The notes beneath the pieces are model-generated. The model ran no database searches. It saw nothing but the letters and a program-made list of their open reading frames with translations, and was not told the DNA's origin. 64,000 nt of DNA. Source: Siphonodentalium dalli (taxonomy: Eukaryota; Mollusca; Scaphopoda; Gadilida; Siphonodentaliidae). The translations under genes were made by a program, and so were the position numbers. Location: positions 193,657,948 through 193,721,947 of the forward strand of contig CP136064.1 of NCBI GenBank assembly GCA_032622095.1. The letters run 5' to 3'. Below are positions 4,995 through 62,286 of this stretch, in pieces. Each line of letters begins with the position of its first letter. Position 1 is the stretch's first letter.

Positions 4995-6078
4995 CCCACG
5001 TCTGTTTTTAATTTATATCTATATCTATATTTGCGAATGTCTGTCTGTCTGTCTGTGTTCTATAGCAATTCACAGGGGACCACCTAGATAGCACATAGGG
5101 GTCTAATAGAGGTAACCTTTTACGAGAAAGATAATGGCGAGTGTTAGAATTTTCTAAAGTGACGCCGTTGTTGTCAGGGGCAGAAAAGGGGGAGGTGCAG
5201 AAACAAAATGTGTCGCCGATTGCCACCAAACTTATATATAATAATCCCCATAATATGAGGAATCTGATGCTGTGGTTTAAATATGTCAAAAGGCGCGCCG
5301 TTCGCATCAGGGATGCCCGGAAGGGGAGAGGGGCATCAACATTTATCAAAAATAATTTTAGCGCCGAATTCCACCAAATTGATGCACATTCTTCTGAGAT
5401 CTTCTCCATGATACAAGGAATCTTATTGTGTGATTTAAAGACGCCAAATTGGTGTCGTTTGGATGAGAGATTTGGGGGGGGCGGTGGGTGGGTACTAAAT
5501 CTGATCAGAATTGGTTTAGTCGCCGATTGCCACCAAACTTATACAAATTCATCCCCATGGTATGTGTCTAATGGCGTGGCTTAAAGCTGTCAAAAGTGGC
5601 CTCATTCGAGGCAGGGGTGCACTGAAAGGTAGAGGGGCACCAAAATTGATACACAATATTTTTAGCGCCAATTTCCACCAAATTGATACACATGCATTCT
5701 TATCCATGATATGAGGAATCTAATCGTGTGATTTTAAAGACGTCATATTGGTGCTGCTTTGGTGAGAGATGGGGGTTGGGTGGGGTGGGCACTAAATTTG
5801 ATATAAAAAAATGTTAGTCACGGATTAGCTTACAAACTTACAAATAATAATCTCCATGATATCAGGAGTCTAATTGTGTGGTTTAAAGATGTCAAAATTG
5901 GGGCCATTCGAGTCAGGGGTGCCTAGAGGGTGAGAGGGACACACACATTGTTAAACAATATGTTTAGCGCCGATTTCCACCTGATTGATACATATTCTTC
6001 TCCGTGATACGAATAATCTAATCGTGTGGTTTACATGCGCCAAATTGGTGCTTTTTGGGTGAGAGATATGCAAATGGT
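4995..6078. repeat. Repeat tract with ~300 bp units (copy A)
   Basis: Diverged units recur about every 300 bp. The anchors are 'cgccgattgccaccaaactt' at about 5214 and 5521 and a degraded form at about 5818. Each unit also carries 'gtgtggtttaaagatgtc' and 'ttagcgccgatttccacc'. The tract opens with a short (GTCT)n run. The same tract is at about 17790-18880 and, in longer form, at about 21130-22880. In A and B it separates the two LINE fragments. Confidence 0.75.
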
Positions 6079-6670
6079 GGCCCTAAGATGGCTCGAGCTA
6101 TTTATTGTATCAACAAAGTTAAAAAGTTCTTTCCGGGTGACGCACTGCGAACTCTATATTACGCACTTATCAACAGTCATATGGTATACGGCATTCAGGT
6201 ATGGGGTCATGTGGCGACCACTAACAAGATATTTTTATTGCAAAAAAGGGCGATTAGAACAATAACCAATGCTAGATACAACAGTCACACAGAACCAATT
6301 TTCAAAAAAATGAACATTCTAAAATTCTGTGACATTTATACATACCAAACGTCAGTATTCATGCATGACTGGGCTTATAATAGACTGCCAGGGACCTTCA
6401 AAGACTCATTCGGTGTTAAACTTGGAACCAGCAGTAGACAGGCAGCCGCAGGAAACATTAGACCAAAAGCAAAACCAAGAACAAAATTTTCAGAAAATCT
6501 CCCAGAACATTCATATTCGAATATATGGAACTCAGTTCATAAAAAACAAAAAACTAATAGGAATCGAGATAACTATAAAAAAACTGATGAGTGTAGAATT
6601 GATCAACCAGTATTCCAACAAAATTGAATGCAAAAACAAATTTTGCCCTGATTGCACACACAAATGATAA
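6055..6670 (+). pseudogene. LINE ORF2 C-terminal fragment (copy A)
   Basis: The translation includes MVYGIQVWGHV, LLQKRAIRTITNARY, HTEPIFKKMNILKF and a tryptophan-rich tail. This is the post-RT region typical of CR1/Jockey-type ORF2 proteins. The catalytic part of the RT is absent upstream. Relative to copy B, copy A has one extra A in a poly-A run near 6577-6583. That shifts the frame and ends the ORF early (190 residues against 203 in B). The ATG used is not a natural start. The fragment cannot be active. Confidence 0.75.
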
Positions 6671-8079: not shown

Positions 8080-8504
8080 GGCTCCATATAGGTGTGTAGT
8101 CAATTAGTATGTATTAAAGAAAGGATTGAACATTTCCAAATGTGTTTTTGCAATAACAGTTGACACGTGAATTTAACCCTTTCACGACGGGGGCTGCGCT
8201 GGTACAGCATTAAAGATAATGTGCCAGTGCATTTTCTTACGTATGCGAGTCTCCCATAGGAAGACGTGGATATATCTGAGAATGAACTGTCTTACAAGGG
8301 CAAGGTAAATATTGTTGGGCCATGTATTATTACGCCACCTGTGGTGTATCTAGCTGCTGAGATTTTGATATTGCGTGGTGGACAGAATTCTTGTGGGGCT
8401 TTTATTTATAGAGTTGGAAATTCCGTTTATTTAAAAGTCGGAACTACGCGACCAGTAGGTCAAGTCCAGTAAAACGGTTCGTTATAGGTGCTGGTTGTTA
8501 TTGT

Positions 8505-17100: not shown

Positions 17101-20100
17101 CTAAGATGAATATGTGCATTTCACTGAGAATACCAACAACGTTTTTTTTCTTCTAAATTCCGTTTTTCATACTGGTCAGGCATTGACACAGTGATTGTGC
17201 CATTATTGGAATCTTGCTATTTTAGCTCAAAAATGTATTCTCATTGTGGGGACGCCGTACATACTATAAGAACCATAAGCTCTTAAACAGCATGATACAT
17301 CAGTTGAAACATCTCAATTACGTGTCACAAGTGCATGTACAACGAGGACAGCTTCCAAAACATAGCTTATAACCCCTCAGTGGAAGGTTTTTGCAATGAG
17401 GGACCGTATATTATGTGTTTAAAGAAAAAAAATGTTTATCGTGATTGTTGTGTGCATGAAACAATGTGCGAATTTTACCTATGGTGTAGGTAATTGGTTA
17501 CATAGCGTGCAAACAATACATGTACATCAAATACCATAGTTATATGTTTATGATTTGGTGCGAGATATTTAAGCAATGTCATCACATTGAGAAATGAGGA
17601 ATACTCTTTATAACAGGTTGAAAATGATACTTTCATATGACACATTCGTGAAAGAGACAGAGTGTTCAAAGTTACCCCAAATATATGACAATATATGTCG
17701 ATCACAAGACGACAGAAAAGAGGTCCGGTGTGTATTCTGTGACACAAGTAAAGCGTTCGATAAAGTCTGGCACCGCAAGGTTAGTATTAGGCCCACGTCT
17801 GTTTTTAATTTATATCTATATCTATATTTGCGAATGTCTGTCTGTCTGTCTGTCTGTCTGTGTTCTATAGCAATTCGCAGGGGACCACCTAGATAGCACA
17901 TAGGGGTCTAATAGAGGTAACCTTTTACGAGAAAGATAATGGCGAGTGTTAGAATTTTCTAAAGTGACGCCGTTGTTGTCAGGGGCAGAAAAGGGGGAGG
18001 TGCAGAAACAAAATGTGTCGCCGATTGCCACCAAACTTATATATAATAATCCCCATAATATGAGGAATCTGATGCTGTGGTTTAAATATGTCAAAAGGCG
18101 CGCCGTTCGCATCAGGGATGCCCGGAAGGGGAGAGGGGCATCAAAATTTATCAAAAATAATTTTAGCGCCGAATTCCACCAAATTGATGCACATTCTTCT
18201 GAGATCTTCTCCATGATACAAGGAATCTTATTGTGTGATTTAAAGACGCCAAATTGGTGTCGTTTGGATGAGAGATTTGGGGGGGGCGGTGGGTGGGTAC
18301 TAAATCTGATCAGAATTGGTTTAGTCGCCGATTGCCACCAAACTTATACAAATTCATCCCCATGGTATGTGTCTAATGGCGTGGCTTAAAGCTGTCAAAA
18401 GTGGCCTCATTCGAGGCAGGGGTGCACTGAAAGGTAGAGGGGCACCAAAATTGATACACAATATTTTTAGCGCCAATTTCCACCAACTTGATACACATGC
18501 ATTCTTATCGATGATATGAGGAATCTAATCGTGTGATTTTAAAGACGTCATATTGGTGCTGCTTTGGTGAGAGATGGGGGTTGGGTGGGGTGGGCACTAA
18601 ATTTGATATAAAAAAATGTTAGTCACGGATTAGCTTACAAACTTACAAATAATAATCTCCATGATATCAGGAGTCTAATTGTGTGGTTTAAAGATGTCAA
18701 AATTGGGGCCATTCGAGTCAGGGGTGCCTAGAGGGTGAGAGGGACACACACATTGTTAAACAATATGTTTAGCGCCGATTTCCACCTGATTGATACATAT
18801 TCTTCTCCGTGATACGAATAATCTAATCGTGTGGTTTACATGCGCCAAATTGGTGCTTTTTGGGTGAGAGATATGCAAATGGTGGCCCTAAGATGGCTCG
18901 AGCTATTTATTGTATCAACAAAGTTAAAAAGTTCTTTCCGGGTGACGCACTGCGAACTCTATATTACGCACTTATCAACAGTCATATGGTATACGGCATT
19001 CAGGTATGGGGTCATGTGGCGACCACTAACAAGATATTTTTATTGCAAAAAAGGGCGATTAGAACAATAACCAATGCTAGATACAACAGTCACACAGAAC
19101 CAATTTTCAAAAAAATGAACATTCTAAAATTCTGTGACATTTATACATACCAAACGTCAGTATTCATGCATGACTGGGCTTATAATAGACTGCCAGGGAC
19201 CTTCAAAGACTCATTCGGTGTTAAACTTGGAACCAGCAGTAGACAGGCAGCCGCAGGAAACATTAGACCAAAAGCAAAACCAAGAACAAAATTTTCAGAA
19301 AATCTCCCAGAACATTCATATTCGAATATATGGAACTCAGTTCATAAAAAACAAAAAACTAATAGGAATCGAGATAACTATAAAAAACTGATGAGTGTAG
19401 AATTGATCAACCAGTATTCCAACAAAATTGAATGCAAAAACAAATTTTGCCCTGATTGCACACACAAATGATAAAAATGATAAAAATGTTCTGAATATAT
19501 TTAGTCTATTGGCTACTTACCCTAAATGCTAAAATTGTCTCACATTAAATTACCAGAGTACTACGACTTGTATCCTGCAAAATCTCGTCCAACGCATGGC
19601 TATATATACTAAGGAAATTTAACTGTAACAGTTATAAACACAGTGTGTGAGCAAATCTTTATAAATTCCCTTAGTAAATACAGCCAAACAAACTCCAAAT
19701 ATTTTAGAACGTTTGACCGTTGCATATTCATTCATATCCATTTATATCCAAACAACTAAAAATATCTGTTTATTCACTGGTATCAATATCTATAATTAAA
19801 TTCAATATAAATATTAATATAATCAGGAAACTATAGTGAAATACTTCAAGTCTTTATATAGCCATTACTGCTTGTATTCTGTCAGTCAGGGGTGCCGGGT
19901 AGACGGCCATCATTGGCCACGGCACTCCACACAATACATATACAAATTGACATGTATTATAATGTATTAATGTATAATGTATTGTATTGTGGAATAAAAT
20001 ATTATCCTATCCTATTATCCTATCATATCCTATAAGTTTGTTGCAGCCTGAATTCGGGCTGATTTTGAACCGAAACTGGAAATTGTTAACGTTGCAAAAG

Positions 20101-20357: not shown

Positions 20358-22230
20358 TTTCAGTGGTAGATATCTGGCACTATAGACTAATCAATAATTT
20401 TGACAATGGGCACACACCATGTTCTTCAAATTTCTTTGATATTGGTGACTGTGAATGGTGATTTATGGAAGTCAATTTCCACGTTAGTATGCCATTATTA
20501 TTATTTCAATTTCCTAACAAACCATGACATATAGATGACATGGCGTTCAGATAATTGTGCAATGTACATTCTATTGGGTATGAAGTGTCTTTGGTAGATT
20601 TTATCGGTCATAATTTAAACTACTGACACAAAATACGGAAAATCTAAAACACAACAGGTACGGTAATGGAGAAAACGCGTATAGTTTTAATATATAGTTG
20701 AAACAATTGTTATCTACTACACAAGATTGATGCTTTTATCATCGAATTGTGGACGACATGTTTCAAAGTATTTGGGCAGATTTGGGAGTCATATAGCTGC
20801 ATCCGTGATCAAAATATATGTCGTAAGCCACTCTGGTTCGTTTAATCTCGACATACAAAGGGTGTTTCCAGTTCCAAGTAAACAGGTTCTCTTCTCAGAA
20901 TGTACTTTCAGTTTATATATAGAGAGAGCCCACTTCGATCTGGTTCGTCTGACCCCGGTCTGCAAAGAGTGTTTCGAGTTCAGAGAAAACTGGATCTCTT
21001 CTCATAATGTACTTTCGGTTTCTATATATAGCTGATATTAATTTTTATTTACCAACACTAATAACAGGAAAAAATATATATGTGACATAAGTAAAGCGTT
21101 CGATAAAGTCTGGCACCGCAAGGTTAGTATTAGGCCCACGTCTGTTTTTAATTTATATCTATATCTATATTTGCGAATGTCTGTCTGTCTGTCTGTCTGT
21201 CTGTGTTCTATAGCAATTCACAGGGGACCACCTAGATAGCACATAGGGGTCTAATAGAGGTAACCTTTTACGAGAAAGATAATGGCGAGTGTTAGAATTT
21301 TCTAAAGTGACGCCGTTGTTGTCAGGGGCAGAAAAGGGGGAGGGGCAGAAACAAAATGTGTCGCCGATTGCCACCAAACTTATATATAATAATCCCCATA
21401 ATATCAGGAATCTGATGCTGTGGTTTAAATATGTCAAAAGGCGCGCCGTTCACATCAGGGATGCCCGGAAGGGGAGAGGGGCACCAAAATTTATCAAAAA
21501 TAATTTTAGCGCCGAATTCCACCAAATTGATGCACATTCTTCTGAGATCTTCTCCATGATACAAGGAATCTTATTGTGTGATTTAAAGACGCCAAATTGG
21601 TGTCGTTTGGATGAGAGATTTGGGGGGGCGGTGGGTGGGTACTATAAATCTGATCAGAATTGGTTTAGTCGCCGATTGCCACCAAACTTATACAAATTCA
21701 TCCCCATGGTATGTGTCTAATGGCGTGGCTTAAAGCTGTCAAAAGTGGCGTCATTCGAGGCAGGGGTGCACTGAAAGGTAGAGGGGCACCAAAATTGATA
21801 CACAATATTTTTAGCGCCAATTTCCACCAAATTGATACACATTCTTATCCATGATATGAGGAATCTAATCGTGTGATTTTAAAGACGTCATATTGGTGCT
21901 GCTTTGGTGAGAGATGGGGGTTGGGTGGGGTGGGCACTAAATTTGATATAACACAATGTTAGTCACGGATTAGCTTACAAATTACAAATAATAATCTCCA
22001 TGATATCAGGAGTCTAATTGTGTGGTTTAAAGATGTCAAAATTGGGGCCATTCGAGTCAGGGGTGCCTAGAGGGTGAGAGGGACACACACATTGTTAAAC
22101 AATATGTTTAGCGCCGATTTCCACCTGATTGATACATATTCTTCTGCGTGATACGAATAATCTAATCGTGTGGTTTACATGCGCCAAATTGGTGCTTTTT
22201 GGGTGAGAGATATGCAAATGGTGGCCCTAA
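20357..22230 (+). repeat. Partial duplicated block, copy C
   Basis: 20357-21080 matches 15738-16460 of copy B (2936-3655 of A). It then jumps at 'aaaaaatatatat|gtgacataag' to the sequence matching 4943 onward of A, and runs to about 22230. The putative TIR element and most of the RT fragment (A 3656-4942) are absent. At about 22230, after 'ggtggccctaa', A and B continue into the LINE 3' end while C continues as repeat tract. Confidence 0.85.
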
Positions 22231-31140: not shown

Positions 31141-31980
31141 TATTTCTTTATGCGGACAAACAATGAATACTTACTTGAAACGTTGTTGCAGGCTTTATAG
31201 AAGCTGCTGTTACTTTCACACCCCATAATACGTCCATGCGTCCGTTGATCCGTCCGTCCGTCTGTCCGGAGTTATAACTCCAGTAATGATCATCCGATTT
31301 GATTGAAACTTGGTATGTAGGTGTCTCAACCAAGAACACAGGTGCTCTGCAATTCTGGGGTTGACCCGATGTTCTTTTATGGAGTTATTTCCCTTTTTTC
31401 AACTTTTTTTTTACTTAGAAAATTTCTCACTTTTTCGGTTTCCGGATGATATCTCAAGTTAGAATCCTTTAATTGCAAGTACTGTTTTTATGTTGATCAG
31501 TCATATCAAGATACAGGTTAAGTTCGAATTTGAGTTTGATCCGATGATTTTTCCTAGAGTTATGGACTTTTTTTTTCGACTTAGAAAATTCAATTTTCTA
31601 CTTTTTTCTTTGGTTTCCGGATGATAACTCAAGTTTTGACTGTTCAATTGAACATTCTGTTTTTTTTGTGAGTCATTGATATCAAAATACAGGTCAAGTT
31701 CGAATTTGAGTTTGATCCGTTGATTTTTCTCAGAGTTATGGGCTTTTCGACTTAGAATATTCAATTTTTCTTGTTCTTTCTTTGGTTTCCGGATGATAAC
31801 TCAAGTTTGGATTGTTTAATTGGAAATTCTGTTTTTTTTGTGGGTCGTTCATATCAAAATACAGGTCAAGTTCGAATTTGAGTTTGATCCAATGATTTTT
31901 CCCAGAGTTATGGGCCTTTCGACTTTGAATTTTTTTTTTTATAATTTTCTGTATGAGGGTACCTTCATGGTGTAATCAAC
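31141..31980. repeat. Mollusc-style repeat field with ~175 bp units
   Basis: It opens with a TCCG-rich tract (about 31225-31268) and 'atccgatttgattgaaact'. Three units follow at about 31500, 31677 and 31848 with 'aagttcgaatttgagtttga', 'gagttatgg' and 'cggatgataactcaag'. Related units occur at 60420-62290. Confidence 0.7.
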
Positions 31981-32698
31981 TCCTCCTACAGTTTTGATCG
32001 TAGATATTGAAACTTCAGAGTATTGTTACCCACATTATTAACCCTTTCGACTTAGAACATTTCAACATTTTTTTTAATTTCTTTAACAAAGCGGCATCGA
32101 CTTGCCACGTTGTCGGGGGACACTGTGGTCGGCCGACCTTTTATTGATTTAAGTATGTTTTATGGAGGTTTTGGAACAATTAATACATAGAATATACAAA
32201 TCGTCCCCATGCAGTTTTAGCAAAACTTACAAAACTCGTCCAGTAACTGACATAATTTACTGGTCTCGTTTTGTATATTTCACTATAAACTGGGGATGAT
32301 CGAGTTGTAGATCCTCTATATCTCAAATCTGTCTGTTGCAAAAAATCACAATTCCAGTTCAAGTTTGAATGATTGGACAAAATGTTATACATGAAGGCCA
32401 ATTTTTCCAAGGAAGAAAATGTGCGATAAAAGTTCAAGGCAGCTGAAGTCAAGATCGACTTGAACATAAACACAATGAAAATGATACGGAGGAACAGCTG
32501 ACATAATAATAATAAAGCAGCTGAGCTTTCAATTTATCTATGGCAGAAGTTAAAATTTTGAACTTGGTGTACGAAGCTGTGTTGACCGAATATACCATTT
32601 AGATATGGTATATATTGTCCTAGCTAGCAAAAAAATTGCTTGTGTACGATTATATTTTAAATATATTAATTTCTCATTATACCCTTATTCCTACACAG
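31981..32698. other. Intergenic stretch before the LRR gene
   Basis: No element was bounded. It ends with a good acceptor, 'cttattcctacacag', for the first visible exon of the LRR gene, so an upstream non-coding exon is likely in or before this stretch, but I cannot place it. Confidence 0.35.
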
Positions 32699-34159: not shown

Positions 34160-34829
34160 ATGCAGCGTTAAAGATCCTGTGTCAGTTCATGCTCTTATAT
34201 ATGCGAGTCTCCCAAAGGGAGCTTCACATATATAAGAGACTGCACTGGCTTGAAAGGTCATGGTAAATATTGTTAGCCTAAAAAATTCCTATGGGAAACT
34301 TGTATATATGTGACCCGCCATACCAAATCCAGTCGGAAGTCGGGATTTTTTTACCCTGTGCCAATGCATTCTCTTATATATGCGAGTCGATCATAGGTCG
34401 CCTCGCATATATAAGAGAATGCATTGGCCTAACAATTTTTTATCATGTTTTTTAAATAAATGTTTCTTACAATTTTTAGGACATAAAATAAAAAACATCC
34501 ATTACCCTGCAGGGAGCCCCACACATATATAGAAACATATAGAAGAGTGTCGTCTGCTCATGTTTGTCTGGGGCTCTGTATGGGTGAAATTATAAAATTG
34601 TTAAAGAATACAAGAACAAATTATTAAAATTGTAAAAAATTGTTAGGCCAATGCATTCTCTTATATATGCGAGGCGACCTATGGTCGACTCGCATATATA
34701 AGAGAATGCATTGGCACAGGGTAAACAAATCTCGACTTCCGACTGGATTTGATATGGCGGGTCACATATATGAGAATACATTGTCACAGGGTTTTCGCAA
34801 ATTTTCAGGAAGCTCCAGTCATGGACGGG
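34160..34829. mobile_element. P-family hairpin element with a nested inverted pair
   Basis: The right terminus 'ctccagtcatggacggg' is followed by TTAA (34830-34833). The left terminus is eroded, but 'gttaaagatcctgtg' and the hairpin with 'cttatatatgcgagtctccc' are present. Within it lies a second inverted pair: 34312-34440 and 34645-34770 begin 'tgtgacccgccataccaaat', and each contains its own 'cttatatatgcgag' hairpin. The ends of the inner element are flanked by 'tatatatg' and 'catatatg'. Confidence 0.65.
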
Positions 34830-38183: not shown

Positions 38184-38226
38184 GTGGGCAACCTATCTTT
38201 AACATTCATGACGAGAACTGCGCTAG

Positions 38227-38405
38227 TGCAGCGTTAAAGATCCTGTGCCAGTACATGCTCTTATATATGCGAGTCTAATAGGGAGCCTCGCATATATAAG
38301 AGAATGCACTGGCTTACAACTTAAAGTTAAGGTAAATATTGTTAGGCCAATGTATTCTCTTATATATGCGAGGCTCTCTAATTTCAAGGAGCTCCAGTCA
38401 TGGAA
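38227..38405. mobile_element. P-family hairpin MITE
   Basis: Contains 'gcagcgttaaagatcctgtg', two hairpins of the 'cttatatatgcgag' type and the end 'ggagctccagtcatgga'. The TTAA sites are eroded. It starts 43 bp after exon 3. Confidence 0.75.
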
Positions 38406-43172: not shown

Positions 43173-43426
43173 CCGTTCCATGACTGGGGCTTCCTGAAAT
43201 TTTTTGAAAACCATGTGCCAATGCAATATCTTATATATACGAGTCTCCCATAGGGAGCCTTGCATATATAAGAGAACACATTGGCCTAACAGTATTTGTC
43301 TTCAACTTGTAAGCCAGAGCATTCTCTTATATATGCGAGGCTCCCTATGGGAGACTCGCATATATACAAGAATGCACTAGCACAGGATCTTTAATGCTGC
43401 ACCAATGCACTCCCTTCATGAAAAGG
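43173..43426. mobile_element. P-family hairpin MITE with TTAA TSD
   Basis: TTAA at 43169-43172 and 43427-43430. The ends are 'ccgttccatgactggggctt' and 'cccttcatgaaaagg'. Two hairpins of the 'cttatatatgcgaggctccc' type lie inside. The element is 254 bp. It is piggyBac-like by TSD and ends. Confidence 0.85.
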
Positions 43427-43848
43427 TTAATCATTTTATTGAACATCTCAAATATCACGGTCAAAACAGAATGCTCGATGCCTATAGGAGTCAGTTGTCA
43501 ACCCTATATAGATATTGCATCTGACCATAGTGATGATTAGCATTCAGTATACCAGGTGACTATGCTCCAACTATCCCAAGGAGACTCAATGTGATATTTT
43601 GGTGTAAACAATATTTATTTTCCAAAATCAAACATTTTACACAATACACATATAGATAAATAGTGATTTAGAAAGAGGATTGGACAACAAGCAAAATGCT
43701 TCTTTAAATCCTCTCCTCGTGGAATAAATGTTACCTCATATGACGGAAATATCACTTGAGGTAAAGCAGACGGGATCTATAGTTTTTGTTTGATTGGAAT
43801 GTTATTACATATTTAGAATTGAGATATGGGTAATACGGGAGCTAAGGG

Positions 43849-45489: not shown

Positions 45490-46170
45490 ATACATATACT
45501 ATATATGCTAGTATCCCACAGGGAGCCTTACATATATAAGAAAATGCGTTGGCCTAACAATATTTATCTTGACCTCGTAAGCCAGTGCATTCTCTTATAA
45601 ACGCTAGTCTCCCACAGGGAGCCTTACATATATAAGAGAATGCATTGGCCTAACAATATTTATCTTGACCTTGTAAGCCAGTGCATTCTCTTATATATGC
45701 TAGTATCCCACAGGGAACCTTACATACATGTATATAAGGGAATGCATTGGCCTAACAATATTTATCTTGACCTCGTAAGCCAGTGCATTCTCTTATATAT
45801 GCTAGTATCCCACAGGGAGCCTTACATATATAAGAGAATGCATTGGCCTAACAATATTTATCTTGACCTCATAAGCCAGTGCATTCTCTTATATGTGCTA
45901 GTATCCCACAGGGAGCATTACATATATTAGAGAATGCATTGGCCTAACAATATTTATCTTGACCTCGTAAGCCAGTGCATTCTCTTATATATGCTAGTAT
46001 CCCACAGGGAGCCTTACATATATAAGAGAATGCATTGGCCTAACAATATTTATCTTGACTTTGTAAGCCAGTGCATTCTCTTATATATGCTAGTATCCCA
46101 CAGGGAGCCTTACATATATAAGAGAATGCATTGGCCTAACAATAGTTATCTTGACCTTGTAAGCCATGCA
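45490..46170. repeat. Tandem array of the P-family hairpin
   Basis: About seven head-to-tail units of 94-102 bp. Each has 'gccagtgcattctcttatat', 'gctagtatcccacagggagc' and 'aagagaatgcattggcctaa', then a linker 'caatatttatcttgacctcg'. Every unit is itself a hairpin. Many units are 96 bp, so open frames run through several of them (45640-45930, 45934-46176) as repeated peptides; I treat these as by-products. It lies downstream of exon 5. Confidence 0.9.
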
Positions 46171-46193
46171 TTATGAAAGAGTTAAAAGGAATA

Positions 46194-54397: not shown

Positions 54398-54600
54398 CCC
54401 TTTCATGATGGTGTAGCATTAAAGATCTTGTGCCAGTGCATTCTCTTTATATGCGAGTCTCACATAGGGCGCCTCTAATACATAAGAGAATGCACTGGCT
54501 TACAAGGTCAATGTAAATATTGTTAGATCAATGTATTCTCTGATATATGCAAGGTTCCCTATGGGAGACTCACATGTATAAGAGAATGCATTGAAAATTT
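54398..54600. mobile_element. P-family hairpin MITE, right end lost
   Basis: TTAA at 54394-54397, left end 'ccctttcatgatgg', two hairpins with 'agagaatgcactggctta' and 'agagaatgcattg'. The right terminus is missing after about 54600. Confidence 0.8.
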
Positions 54601-55081: not shown

Positions 55082-55195
55082 CTAGAATCTAAATAACCCT
55101 ATGTGAGTCTCCCATAGGGAGCCCCGTATATGTAAGAGAATACATTGGCCTAACAATATTTACCTTGACTCTCTTATATATGTGAGGCTCCCTAT
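55082..55195. mobile_element. P-family MITE, left half split by a 4.9 kb element
   Basis: It contains 'tgagtctcccatagggagcc' and 'ttggcctaacaatattta' and stops in the hairpin centre at 'gaggctccctat'. The other half resumes after the insertion at 60132 with 'tatgggagactcgc' and runs to about 60213 ('catcatgaaaggg'). Confidence 0.8.
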
Positions 55196-55806
55196 TAGTG
55201 TGGTCGTGGGAGAGTTGAACCCGGAAGAAATTGGATACAAGCTGATTTTGGTGTCATTCGACGCGGAAAAACACCAGGAACAACATATCCAAAATCCGCA
55301 AAAATCCGCTCATGGGAAAATTCAGGATCCAAGATGGCGTCCAATATGGCTGACACAATACGTAAATTTCCCATTAGTGCCCAATAACACATGAAACCTC
55401 GGTAATTATGGAAAATTACGCACCAAAACATATTCCGCATTGAAAGTAGCACATGTCAGAACACGCATACTGTTAAGCTTGTTGTCTTTGGGGGCAGATG
55501 GCTATCAATATGGCCGCTGAATTCGGGAAAATTATAATTTTTAAGTGTATACAAATATTCTTCTAATAAAAATGTCTATTATTAGCATATCCTACATTTC
55601 AATACAAGCAGTTTTGGTACATTTTGACGCAGAAAGGAACCGAGACCAACATATAATTTTTTTTTTAAATAGCACAAGCAGTCAGGATACAAGATGGCTT
55701 CCAAGATGGCGGTCAAATGGTGATATTTCGAGTCAGTGCCCATTAGCACGCAAACTCCGGGTTATATGGAAACTATTTAACCAAAACGGAAGCTACATTG
55801 ACTTAG

Positions 55807-58800
55807 TCATGATACAGATGATACATAAATGTCCTTCTCGCGTTGTGCAATTGCTATCAATCGTGAGAATAGCACAGTCGGGTTGAATTGCATTCGATCA
55901 TTCTCGACTCTGATCCCAGGATATAAATGGTCAAGAGATTTTATTTGATCCTTCCGATTGATCGAGGCATCTGTGATACTCATGCTGTTGAGCTTTTGGT
56001 GGATCTCGAAACCGACACGTTCAGAGTCAATACAGTTAACACCGTCCCCATCACTAGATGTTAACCCAGACGACAGGGAGCGTAGTTTACCTTCACTCAA
56101 ATCAAAAGGTTCATGTTCGTCAAACCAACGTTGTATGATTATCAAATCATCAGAGTCACGTTTGCTCCTACTTGCCCCGAACTCCGCGTGCTAAGTTTGG
56201 TTAATTCGGTCATGGCATCATGAATCTCGGCAGACCTATGCTATATATCCATTGCATTCGGACAGATTCGGTCATTCCCCTACCTCTTGTCAGACCCCCT
56301 CTGCTTTTGATAGAACGCATAAGGACTTGTTCTATTATGAGATCTGTTGATAATCCTGCCCATAATCTATTGCTTCTACGTACAGCATGAAACCCATTTT
56401 CGGCGAAACATTTGTACAGCCAAGGGTGTTTATTAGGTAGTTCCAACATTTGCTGTAGATAGAGTCGACAGCTCTTGGCATAGTTGGCGTGGCCGGTTGC
56501 CGCAAATAGATTGAGCATTTGCCCCACAGTAGCGAGATGCAGACTCCAATTTCCTGTCCTCTCTGCTCTAATGAAATTCTTCAACGTTTGCACATATTCC
56601 AAATACTGAATCCACAACTTTGCTGTCGGAGATTTCTCAATAAGCAACGATTTATACTTGTTCAAACATTCCTCGAGTTTCATCAATGGTTGAGACCCAG
56701 AAACAGCACTTGCAGGAATTACTCTACTTTCAATAGATTTGTACAAATCACTTATTGCGTTCATCTCATCCTTCTCGATTCTAAGTATTGTTTTTTCTTG
56801 AGACTGATTTATAGCTACTGTGGCATCAGGCGAAGCATCGAGCACCTTCTCAGTCTGCACTGTTCGGCCACCCCAATGGCTTGTCGGACTTGTACTTGTT
56901 TCTGTAGATGGCACAATGTCTGATATCAGCTTAATTGTAAGAGTAGCATCAATTAAGAAATGTCCACGCATTGCATTTGATATTGCCTTCCCAGAAATCA
57001 TATGTGTAACTGCGTTAGGGCCTTAGACATTCTCCAGAGCCTCTTCCAAACCCGAACCCTTCATTAGTGAACCAATACTGCCCATGAAACTCATAATGGT
57101 ATGAAAGCCACCCAGTCTGCAGACTATATTCATGGACTTGGTCATTATAATATTCGTGGCCTTTATCCACAATGGCTGATCAAATGTGATACATAGTGTC
57201 AGGATGTTTAGTTTCGTCGCTTGACCCTGAACATAAAGGAGAGTTGAATATATACAATCTTCATCGGACGGATTCAAATCTATAATCGGCAAAAACAGAA
57301 CGTCAGACTTCGTTGGGCACTTCTGGTCATCAGTCGTAATATATTACATGAAGCCCGACCAATTTGTCCGAGGCTTTGTAGATTGGTTCACAAACCACCC
57401 TGAATGCCACAGTAGATCAGTGTTGAGCTCTGGCGGCAATGTGTGTGGAGCAATCAGTTGAAGCAAAGGTTTGTAAGACAACGATGAAAGGCCTTTACCG
57501 GGAGAATCAACATAATGGCATATCTGGACTCCTTTACCTCGAACTAGCTCATCAACCTTCGAACGCTGGCACCTGTTAATGGTGTGTGGCCTGAGGCTAA
57601 GCTGTTTTTGATCTTTTGGAGTAGAGATTGCTATCATGCCCATACCATGGAATGTTCCTTGACCATCTAAAGTTGCTATGTTATGGTCTACATTGTCGGC
57701 AACCCACTGTGTACATGTTCCGGGGAAATAGTCCGTTAGAATATCGTCAGGACGTTCGGTTTGGATGACAGACTGTTTGTATCTTTCTACTTCGTCATGT
57801 GTAATGGAGAACCCCAACCTAGATAACTCATTCACCAACCATTTTGAACCGAACACGTGATCCATCTCCACACCCACACCAAAGAGCGTTGGTGTTATAA
57901 CAGATCGAGGTCGAGCAGATTGAATTATGGAGTGCCCAATGCTATTTATCTTCAAATCGGATAGAATCAGAACACTTAACATCGTGTGCAAATGATGCGG
58001 AACCCACTGTCGACCCCGATCAATGGAAGATATATCTTCACTGGTTGGGTATGAATTAGTGTCATATTCAGTCTCTTATTTCTGCTCGTAATGTCCTTGC
58101 TGCTGTCAACATTATCCTTTCAGTTTCCTCTTCAATACTATCTATCTTATCACAGTACAATTTTTCGTTTATGATAAACTTTGCCATGTTCTGAAAACAC
58201 ACTATATTGTTCCGTCCCTCAACTTCGGCGAAAAATATAAACTCCCTGTAGTGGTCCTGCAGTTTCTCTTTGAGCCATTTCATACTACACGTATACACAT
58301 GACAATCACCCGCACACTCAATCATTTTGTCATGTAACTCCCCCAGAGTATATAATTCTGCACCAGCTTCGAGCCAACTACAAACCATCTCAAACCATTG
58401 CTGCACTCCCTGGTCCGATCTCCTACCACTTTTCGCCTTATCGACCAATGTTGGATTTTCTTTATCCTTCTGGAAATCAGTATAACAACGTGAGTGGTAG
58501 ACATATTCTGCTGCTACCAAGTCTATACAACCATACAACCGATCCTGAACATCGGATGCCCATTTGGTCCCACTTTTATCACATAATTTTAGGATATTGT
58601 CCCGCATTGGGAGGGTTGTTACTTGCCTCACACCTGATCTGTCGGGATGTCGAGGATCTATAGTGGCAGGCGTACCACAAAACATAGTCTGTCTTGAAAT
58701 CAAACGGTCACACATCAGATCTCAGTTGTTTATTTGGAGGTACTTCGGTAGTTATTTCAACAGAACGGTGTCGCCTTTTTGGATCTGTGAAATCTCTACG

Positions 58801-59025
58801 ACAATTCGAATGGACAAGAACTTTACCGACTGGTGTCATCTGATAGCGCTCATTCAGATAATCTTTCAGGTCGTGCCTCCCACGTTTATCACAGAAATTG
58901 ATCAATGTCAAAATGCCTTTCTTAGACACGATGACGGGAGGTTTGTCATCAAAACCCGATGGGCATAAAACACACATGTCATCCCGAAATTGCGTAATTT
59001 CTTGCGGCTCGCAAAATTCTGCCAT
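55807..59025 (-). pseudogene. Large decayed gene of the 4.9 kb element, putative transposase
   Basis: Minus-strand pieces in order: 59025-58708, 58715-58068, 57991-57344, 57292-57023, 57001-56210, 56145-55807. They form one protein of over 1,000 residues. The N-terminus has two similar modules: CVLC with VHSNCRRDF, and FCG with YHSRCYTDF (C-x2-C ... H-x2-C-x3-F, zinc-binding type; the first Cys of module 2 is lost). Later blocks are WVADNVDHNIATLDGQG, ITFDQPLWIKATNIIM, LGGFHTIMSFMGSIG with GSGLEEAL, FIRAERTGNWSLHL, and RSNRLWAGLSTDLIIEQVLM. I recognise these as a widespread uncharacterised invertebrate family. The D of DNVDHN, the D of FDQPLW and a later E are candidate DDE residues (inference). 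Breaks are frameshifts near 58710, 58070, 56215 and 56180, and in-frame TAA stops near 57343 and 57022. The C-terminus is missing. The gene is dead. Confidence 0.75.
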
Positions 59026-59880
59026 AACTATATATTCAATACAAGACCAACTGATATATGGACTGACACTACATTTAAATGATAGAAATATAGAATATGT
59101 ATAGTAACAGGTCTCCTGCGTACGTTGGCACCGTTAGGTTTCAACAGGAGAAAGTTATAAGCCTTCAATCCAGTGGTTTGCAAATCAAAGTATTACTACT
59201 TGAACATACACAGCCGGAATGAGACAATACAAGCAACGAAGCTATATGCGAAAAAGCAGCCGATATGCGAGACCTTTTATGTGCATCTGCGAGAACAAGC
59301 ATATAACACGTGTTCTGTTATAAACGCTCTTTATGTTCTGTTATATACACGCTCTTTATGACATTTCCTGGAAAGGTATAGCAAAACACGTGTTCTGTAG
59401 CAAACACTCTTTATTGTTGAACGAACCGACATTGCCAGCCAGCTAATATAGATATCAGTGATACACATAAACTTGGTTTATTCGCTGTATGGACTTACAA
59501 ATAGCAGTTATAGTAAATTATATAAACACATTAAGCACATAAATTCGTCAATGTTCATAACTGGTTGAATAAATTGATAAAAACGGCATTTGAGAGTCAA
59601 ACATGTGTTGTATTTCAAAGTGCTCTGAAATCCTTGTCCATGTGCAGATTTTGGCAAATTTTGGATATGTTGTTTCTGTGGCTTTATCGGTTAGATTGAT
59701 ACCAAATTTAACATGTATTCCAGAAAATATGACATGCCAATATAATTGACTGTTGTCTTAGACAAATATATACTTGAAAATTATAATTTTCTCGAATTTG
59801 GCTGTTATATTAACAGAAGTATGTCCCAATTGACAACAAAATTGTTTATATATATGTTCTAACATATGTTACTATCAATG
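59026..59880. other. Subterminal region of the 4.9 kb element
   Basis: Non-coding. It has repeated words 'cacgtgttctgt' and 'acgctctttat' at about 59310-59420, and a diverged TIR-like copy near 59640-59720. The promoter of the minus-strand gene would be near 59030-59150; no firm motif. Confidence 0.4.
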
Positions 59881-60213
59881 TGGAATCCGTTTTTGGTGAG
59901 ATTTTTCCATATTCACTGAGTGTTTGCGTGTCAATGTGCGTTGACTGGAAAATTATTCATTTGGCGGCCATCTTTTACGCCATCTTGGATCCTGAATTTT
60001 CCCATGATCGGATTTTTGCAGATTTTGGATATGTTGTTCCTGAAGCTTTTCCGCGTCGAATGACACCAAAATCAGCTTGTATCCAATTTCTTCCGGGTTG
60101 ACCCCCAAATTCAGCTTCAACGACCATACTATATGGGAGACTCGCTTATATAAGAGAATGTACTGCCTCATGATCTTTAATGCTGCACCAGCGCAGCTCC
60201 CATCATGAAAGGG

Positions 60214-60419
60214 ATAAAGAGCAAGACATGTTTTGTAAAGTTTGCACAGGAACCCTGAATACATCTTTAAGACTTGTGTGTTCTTTATGTGCTAGACATA
60301 TATCAGTACCCCCATATGACTAACGATATTCCATCACACTCATGTGAACTACTTCCCAAGTACATTTTTTGGAGGACTATTATAATCAGCATATCTGTTT
60401 GTGCATGCAAGCATGCATG
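60214..60419. other. Unannotated stretch
   Basis: No recognisable gene or element. Confidence 0.3.
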
Positions 60420-61481
60420 CGGGTTGTCCGGATCATAACATTTAACCATATTAATCAGATTTCTATGGGATTTGGTATATTGTTGATATTTGAGAATGCA
60501 CAAGTCATATTCGAATTTGGTAACGGTCCGATGATTTTTGATGGAGTTATGCCCCTTTTTCGACTTTGAAATTGCTGTTTTGGGGTTTTTCGGATGATAA
60601 CTTGAGCAGTATTCAACTGAATGTCCTGGTACATGGTTCACATTTGAGAAGACACAGCTCACGTTTGAATAGTCATGGTGCAATGATTTTTCAGAAGTTA
60701 TGACCCTCTTTTTACTTAAAAATCATAGTTATTGGGTTATTTGGATGATGACTTGAGAAATAGTCAACAGAATTTCTTGTTATTTTGTATGTGGTTCACA
60801 TTTGAGAAGACACAGGTCAAGTTCTATTTTGGTCATGGTCTGATAATGTTTGATGGAATTATGCTCCTTTCTGTCTCACTGTCCATCATTATACAGGTCA
60901 AGTTCGAATTCAGGTTCCGCCCGCCAATTTTCTCCAGAGATACATGTATGGTCCTATTTGCAGGAATTTGCACTCAATTTCCGTTTCCTGATGATAACTT
61001 TTATTATTAAACTGAATGGAATTAAATTTGGTATGTGAGTTTACAAGCCCAAAATACAGATGAAGTTCGAATTTGGGTTCTGCCTGCCAATTTTCACCAG
61101 AGTTATGGCCCTTTGTTGCAATTACCACGGGCGTATTTTCCACACCCTAGCAATGCTCTTAATTTTTGAGTTGTCCGGATGATAACTTGAGGAATATTTA
61201 ACTTAATTTCTCGTTATTCGCTATGTGGTTCAAATTTTAGAAGAGACTGGCCAACTTTTATTAGTCGAGTTTTTTTCCAAAACTCGACTTATAGTTTGAT
61301 GAGGGACGGTGGGCGGCGGCGGACGGGCAGGCGGGCGGGCGGGCGACGTGTTTTGCTTATAACTCAACCGTTTATTGATGGAAAAATTTGGTGTGTGAGT
61401 ACATATCCATGCACGTAAGCTGCAGACAAAAAATTGGGTTCGTCCGCACATTTATTACAGAGTTATGGCCCTTTGAATTTT
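60420..61481. repeat. Mollusc-style diverged repeat field
   Basis: Related but diverged units with 'aagttcgaatt', 'gatgataacttgag', 'cacatttgagaagacacag' and 'gagttatggccct'. A GGGC-rich minisatellite lies at about 61305-61348, next to 'tcgagtttttttccaaaact' and its inverse-like 'actcgactta'. Related to 31141-31980. Confidence 0.7.
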
Positions 61482-62286
61482 CAGCTCGTTAGCGCGATAA
61501 CTTCAACAAACGTTATCCGATTTGATTGAAATTTGGTATATAGGTGTCTCCCAAGAATATCTCGGATGAGTTCGAAAACCAGTCTGGTCCGATAAAATTT
61601 GATAGAGTTATGGCCCTTAATTAGTCATTTTTCACGAATTTTCAGCTCGTTAGCGCGATAACTTCAACAAACGTTATCCGATTTGATTGAAATTTGGTAT
61701 ATAGGTGTCTCCCAAGAATATCTCGGATGAGTTCGAAAACCGGCCTCCTCCGATAAAATTTGATAGAGTTATGGCCCTTAATTAGTCATTTTTCACAAAT
61801 TTTCAGCTCGTTAGCGCGATAACTTCAACAAACGTTATCCAATTTGATTGAAATTTGGTATATAGGTGTCTCCCAAGAATATCTTGGATGAGTTCGAAAA
61901 CCGGCCTGGTCCGATAAAATTTGATAGAGTTATGGCCCTTAATTAGTCATTTTTCACGAATTTTCAGCTCGTTAGCGCGATAACTTCAACAAACGTTATC
62001 CGATTTGATTGAAATTTGGTATATACGTGTCTCCCAAGAATATCTTGGATGAGTTCGAAAACCGGCCTGGTCCGATAAAATTTGATAGAGTTATGGCCCT
62101 TAATTAGTCATTTTTCACGAATTTTCAGCTCGTTAGCGCGATAACTTCAACAAACGTTATCCGATTTGATTGAAATTTGGTATATAGGTGTCTCCCAAGA
62201 ATATCTCGGATGAGTTCTAAAACCAGCCTGGCCCGATAAAATTTGATGGAGTTATGGCCCTTAATTAGTCATTTTTCGATTTTACC
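61482..62286. repeat. 161 bp satellite, five units
   Basis: 'cagctcgttagcgcgataac' starts at 61482, 61643, 61804, 61965 and 62126, an exact 161 bp period. Units contain 'aacgttatccgatttgattg', 'tgtctcccaagaatatct' and 'agagttatggcccttaatta' and differ by only a few bases each. Recent amplification from the older repeats just upstream is likely. Confidence 0.95.

Follow-up and report, generated by a model that had tools for sequence, protein, structure and literature searches.

A nuclease-less copy of a probable AcademX-like DNA transposon in the scaphopod Siphonodentalium dalli

The window analysed here, a stretch of 64,000 nucleotides from contig CP136064.1 of Siphonodentalium dalli, contains a 4.9-kb element that is probably a cut-and-paste DNA transposon of the AcademX-like type, in a non-autonomous copy with an internal deletion. 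In its fuller form of approximately 6.4 kb, the element has long terminal inverted repeats (TIRs) starting TAGTRTGGTCG and one gene, whose product, judged from an intact relative, would comprise approximately 1,550 residues. The protein starts with a Cys/His-containing part, followed by a probable DDE transposase core into which a helical segment is inserted, then by a predicted 5' nuclease of the FEN1/XPG family, and ends in a Cys-rich tail. The nuclease half is missing from the window copy, which is a member of a nuclease-less form that arose by one deletion event and later multiplied.

Boundaries, target site and gene remnants of the window element

The left end of the element starts TAGTGTGGTCGT, and its right end, read inward, starts TAGTATGGTCGT. 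The TIR arms at 55218-55355 and 59962-60099 span 138 nt and are complementary at 93%. Specifically, in an end-to-end alignment of both ends (from TAGTRTGGTCGT), identity is 68% over columns 1-50, within which lies a 10-base gap, 94-96% over columns 51-150, and 64-70% over columns 151-400. The first base of the left terminus is constant across copies although their flanks are unrelated. When the window flanks are joined with a single TAT, they match unbroken copies of a target repeat, among others the three listed in Table 1; these empty-site copies carry small differences of their own, and one has a 2-base gap right beside the junction. Taken together, the TIR alignment, the flanking TAT/TAT and the empty sites confirm that, as an earlier note on this DNA had claimed, TIRs and a 3-bp target site duplication (TSD) surround a bounded DNA transposon of 4.9 kb.

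The target repeat is dispersed in the window, at 45500-46172 and also at 8172-8328, 54409-54575 and the three empty-site positions of Table 1, and forms a tandem array of seven copies of a 96-bp unit.

The gene is read from the minus strand and is split into four blocks, with shifts of frame and stop codons inside it; this bears out the single decayed gene described earlier, and the peptide blocks named at that time are present in it. The block that matches the probable transposase core contains the motifs DNVDHN, TFDQP, FIRAERTG and IEQVLM. P0003, the protein of the intact relative L048, served as the reference for all four blocks.

Table 1. Features of the element and of its target site in the window.
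Feature	Position	Strand	Remarks
Element	55196-60131	gene on minus strand	Basis: TIRs and flanking TAT/TAT
Left TSD, TAT	55193-55195	.	Same as 60132-60134
Right TSD, TAT	60132-60134	.	
Left TIR, high-identity part	55196-55355	+	Weaker similarity further inward to ~55590
Right TIR, high-identity part	59962-60131	-	Weaker similarity further inward to ~59750
Gene block	58687-59025	-	Start codon present; matches P0003 residues 1-121
Gene block	58071-58685	-	Matches P0003 123-326; N-terminal Cys/His-containing part
Gene block	56237-58075	-	Matches P0003 326-962; all in one frame, which contains stops; probable core of a DDE transposase
Gene block	55828-56190	-	Matches P0003 986-1106; nuclease part expected next is deleted
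Deletion junction	55829-55830	.	1,505 bp absent, positions 638-2142 of fuller copy L015
Target repeat, left part	55106-55195	+	Joined flanks match other repeat copies across the junction
Target repeat, right part	60135-60218	+	Same target repeat as 55106-55195
Empty target-repeat copy	43241-43430		79% match to joined window flanks
Empty target-repeat copy	38205-38380		77% match to joined window flanks
Empty target-repeat copy	34161-34239		89% match to joined window flanks

Copies in the genome share ends, TSD length and gene

The left end of the window element was searched against the 2.23-Gb genome (9 contigs), and 40 left-end matches, the window included, were scored as the best of 3,411 first-look candidates; the sample therefore comprises 40 rows, namely 39 copies taken with their flanks and the window itself. 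Both ends lie inside the stretch read in 30 rows, and the right end was not found in that stretch for the other ten. An exact 3-bp TSD is present in 26 of the 30 two-ended rows (ATA 5, TAA 5, TTA 3, TAT 3, AAA 2, GTA 2, TGA 2, and CAA, GAA, AAT and TTG 1 each), the rows without an identical TSD being L020, L026, L027 and L046. Because flanks are common to L018 and L029 and likewise to L040 and L041, which are two duplicated pairs, the independent count is 24 of 28. The earlier note had proposed this search of the same genome and alignment of copy edges as a check, and coding sequence in all 40 rows upholds the linkage of the gene to the TIRs.

Across the genome, 119 matches to the right terminus were counted at no more than 2 mismatches, as against 0 for the reversed control. 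Many of the genome-wide right-terminus matches, for example G000:C2:28643607-28643648, carry a variant terminus, GGGGATCAACC, which is found at the right end of none of the 30 two-ended rows; such matches possibly come from a short derivative or from a further subfamily.

A single internal deletion defines the nuclease-less class

The 6,468-bp copy L015 served as the reference for the deletion. Among the 40 rows, which are the best matches to the left end of a deletion-class copy and not a random sample, 28 (window included) are missing L015 positions 638-2142, their junctions coinciding to within a few bases; the deletion in L039 is a different and larger one, and 11 rows retain the nuclease half. 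A tree of the 30 two-ended rows, built from their last 3,000 bp, joins the 23 deletion rows in a single clade with a support of 0.857, 20 of them being grouped at 0.987, and the 23 have a mean identity of 97.4%. Junction and tree concur in a single origin of the short form, which multiplied afterwards. The earlier note was right in seeing a bounded DNA transposon that carries a gene, but missed the internal deletion of the window copy; it was also right to name Academ as the first group for comparison, but missed the FEN/XPG-type nuclease of the fuller elements.

Intact relatives encode a large, conserved protein

L015 has two frames, of 315 residues (counted from the first Met) and 1,212 residues. 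A tblastn search with the 1,212-residue piece listed 44 matches, 38 of 5,298 candidates being scored, and the matches listed include families at 60-69% identity with long open frames. The relative L048 encodes 1,547 residues without a stop, and L049 and L050 hold open pieces of 1,181 and 480 residues, respectively. Between L048 and L049, the differences per codon position amount to 0.348/0.206/0.652 upstream of residue 1067 and to 0.353/0.226/0.650 downstream; both halves of the protein are therefore under purifying selection and are maintained by it.

In the fuller elements, a FEN1/XPG-type nuclease fold with conserved acidic motifs is predicted. The N-terminal 1,039 residues yielded no reliable model (predicted local distance difference test (pLDDT) score 34.8), and the fold search was uninformative; from the behaviour of the element and from its class, a DDE transposase is the probable identity of this part, with D455, D592, D625 and E931 as candidate acids. 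The DDD/E transposase domain with an RNase-H fold by which AcademX is also defined would lie in this part. Among the protein pieces searched against Pfam, none matched a family at an E value below 0.0065 and, with filters that discard most weak matches, no transposase family was listed up to E 10; no Pfam helicase family was listed for the intact protein.

Other repeats in the window

Two open frames on the plus strand, 5008-6627 and 17822-19471, are near-identical and 12.8 kb apart, forming a long direct duplication, and by eye resemble the end of a long interspersed nuclear element (LINE) reverse transcriptase. Related tandem repeats of ~300 bp lie at 5212-6067, 18017-18872 and 21360-22211, and a 161-bp tandem array of 5 copies with 97% matches lies at 61475-62277. 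Additionally, a 172-bp tandem repeat occupies 31430-31930, and the joined flanks of L025, a copy on another contig, match window positions 31601-31985 at 91% over 399 columns.

Proposed mechanism and implications

We propose that the transposase would bind the TIRs and then excise the element, which would be joined to the target with a 3-base stagger, giving rise to the TSD. A strand intermediate, either a flap or a flanking 5' end, is probably processed by the fused nuclease during excision or the repair of ends. A single ancestral deletion took out the nuclease half and yielded the 4.9-kb element, which multiplied, its copies presumably being mobilised by protein from fuller elements.

This interpretation explains a large repeated protein that matched no Pfam model. 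The open-frame relatives in the same genome (L048 in full and the 1,181-residue piece of L049) can be used for profile building and for testing what makes a nuclease of the repair type necessary to a transposase, and the single-origin nuclease-less lineage is a natural experiment on that need. The novelty is modest and consists of the intact relatives, structural support for a FEN/XPG domain whose acidic motifs are conserved, the single-origin nuclease-less derivative, and a conserved protein without any Pfam model match.

Alternative interpretations

The element might instead stand for a superfamily of its own, whose DDE transposase has no kinship with Academ and gained a FEN/XPG nuclease independently, the 3-bp TSD being coincidental. 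The Pfam result for the pieces tested fits this view, as does the fact that the terminal bases TAGTR are tied to no named family in this analysis, and kinship with Academ is judged here from described traits. We nevertheless consider it unlikely, and the earlier suggestion of a new superfamily is not supported, because a transposon-encoded nuclease together with a 3-4 bp TSD is already the description of AcademX in the excerpted text of PMC10045372. A second independent origin of such a rare fusion is also improbable. If the superfamily were independent after all, the abundance of the form without a nuclease would demonstrate that this enzyme works in trans or is dispensable for the movement of short elements.

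A CACTA/EnSpm (CMC) or PIF/Harbinger element that captured a nuclease is very improbable. TSDs are 2-3 bp in both groups, and TAGTG and CATACTA occur in the ends of the element. However, the left end opens with TAGTG (first bases TAGT) and the right end closes with CATACTA (last bases ACTA), which is opposite in sense to the CACTA...TAGTG termini of CACTA/CMC; the TSDs CAA, GAA, GTA, TGA, AAT, TTG and AAA depart from the TWA-type 3-bp TSD of PIF/Harbinger; and the filtered Pfam search listed no transposase family up to E 10. Both were therefore rejected. Finally, a repeated host gene family spread by segmental duplication alone, with which open frames under purifying selection and two copy pairs with common flanks would be compatible, has practically no chance of being correct, being refuted by precise ends, differing flanks, 3-bp TSDs and empty sites.

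Comparison with known transposon superfamilies and nucleases

The KDZ elements (Kyakuja, Dileera, Zisupton) have large transposases with Cys-rich tails, as does the element described here, but were rejected because their TSD is 8 bp and not 3 bp. Zator, compared by description, has a Zator transposase and a 3-bp TSD, and the TSD length here fits the latter. Unlike the cellular FEN1/EXO1/XPG 5' nucleases, which have ExD at the corresponding motif, the nuclease here sits within a transposon protein and has DAD at that position. The AcademX nuclease is of the XPG type.

In the part of the published description available to us, TSDs of 3 or 4 bp in AcademX and of 9 or 10 bp in AcademH are related to the encoded nuclease or helicase (PMC10045372). 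AcademH is similar to our element in that an additional DNA-processing enzyme is encoded, but was rejected on its TSD and helicase, as the TSD here is 3 bp, a nuclease is encoded, and Pfam listed no helicase family for the intact protein. By contrast, AcademX and the element share an element-encoded nuclease and a TSD inside the published range, the difference being that the window copy itself is without the nuclease half; this likeness is one of described traits. According to excerpts of further sources, bivalves commonly carry Academ elements, whose consensus sequences average 5,565 bp, near the element length here (PMC10294476), and Academ-1 is listed in a clam and in corals (PMC8905726, PMC11370458). 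Membership of Academ, judged by published traits, is thus most likely, more so than a new kind of transposon. Because the element fits both AcademX traits given in the excerpted description, the "uncharacterised" invertebrate protein of the earlier note is most likely the AcademX protein.
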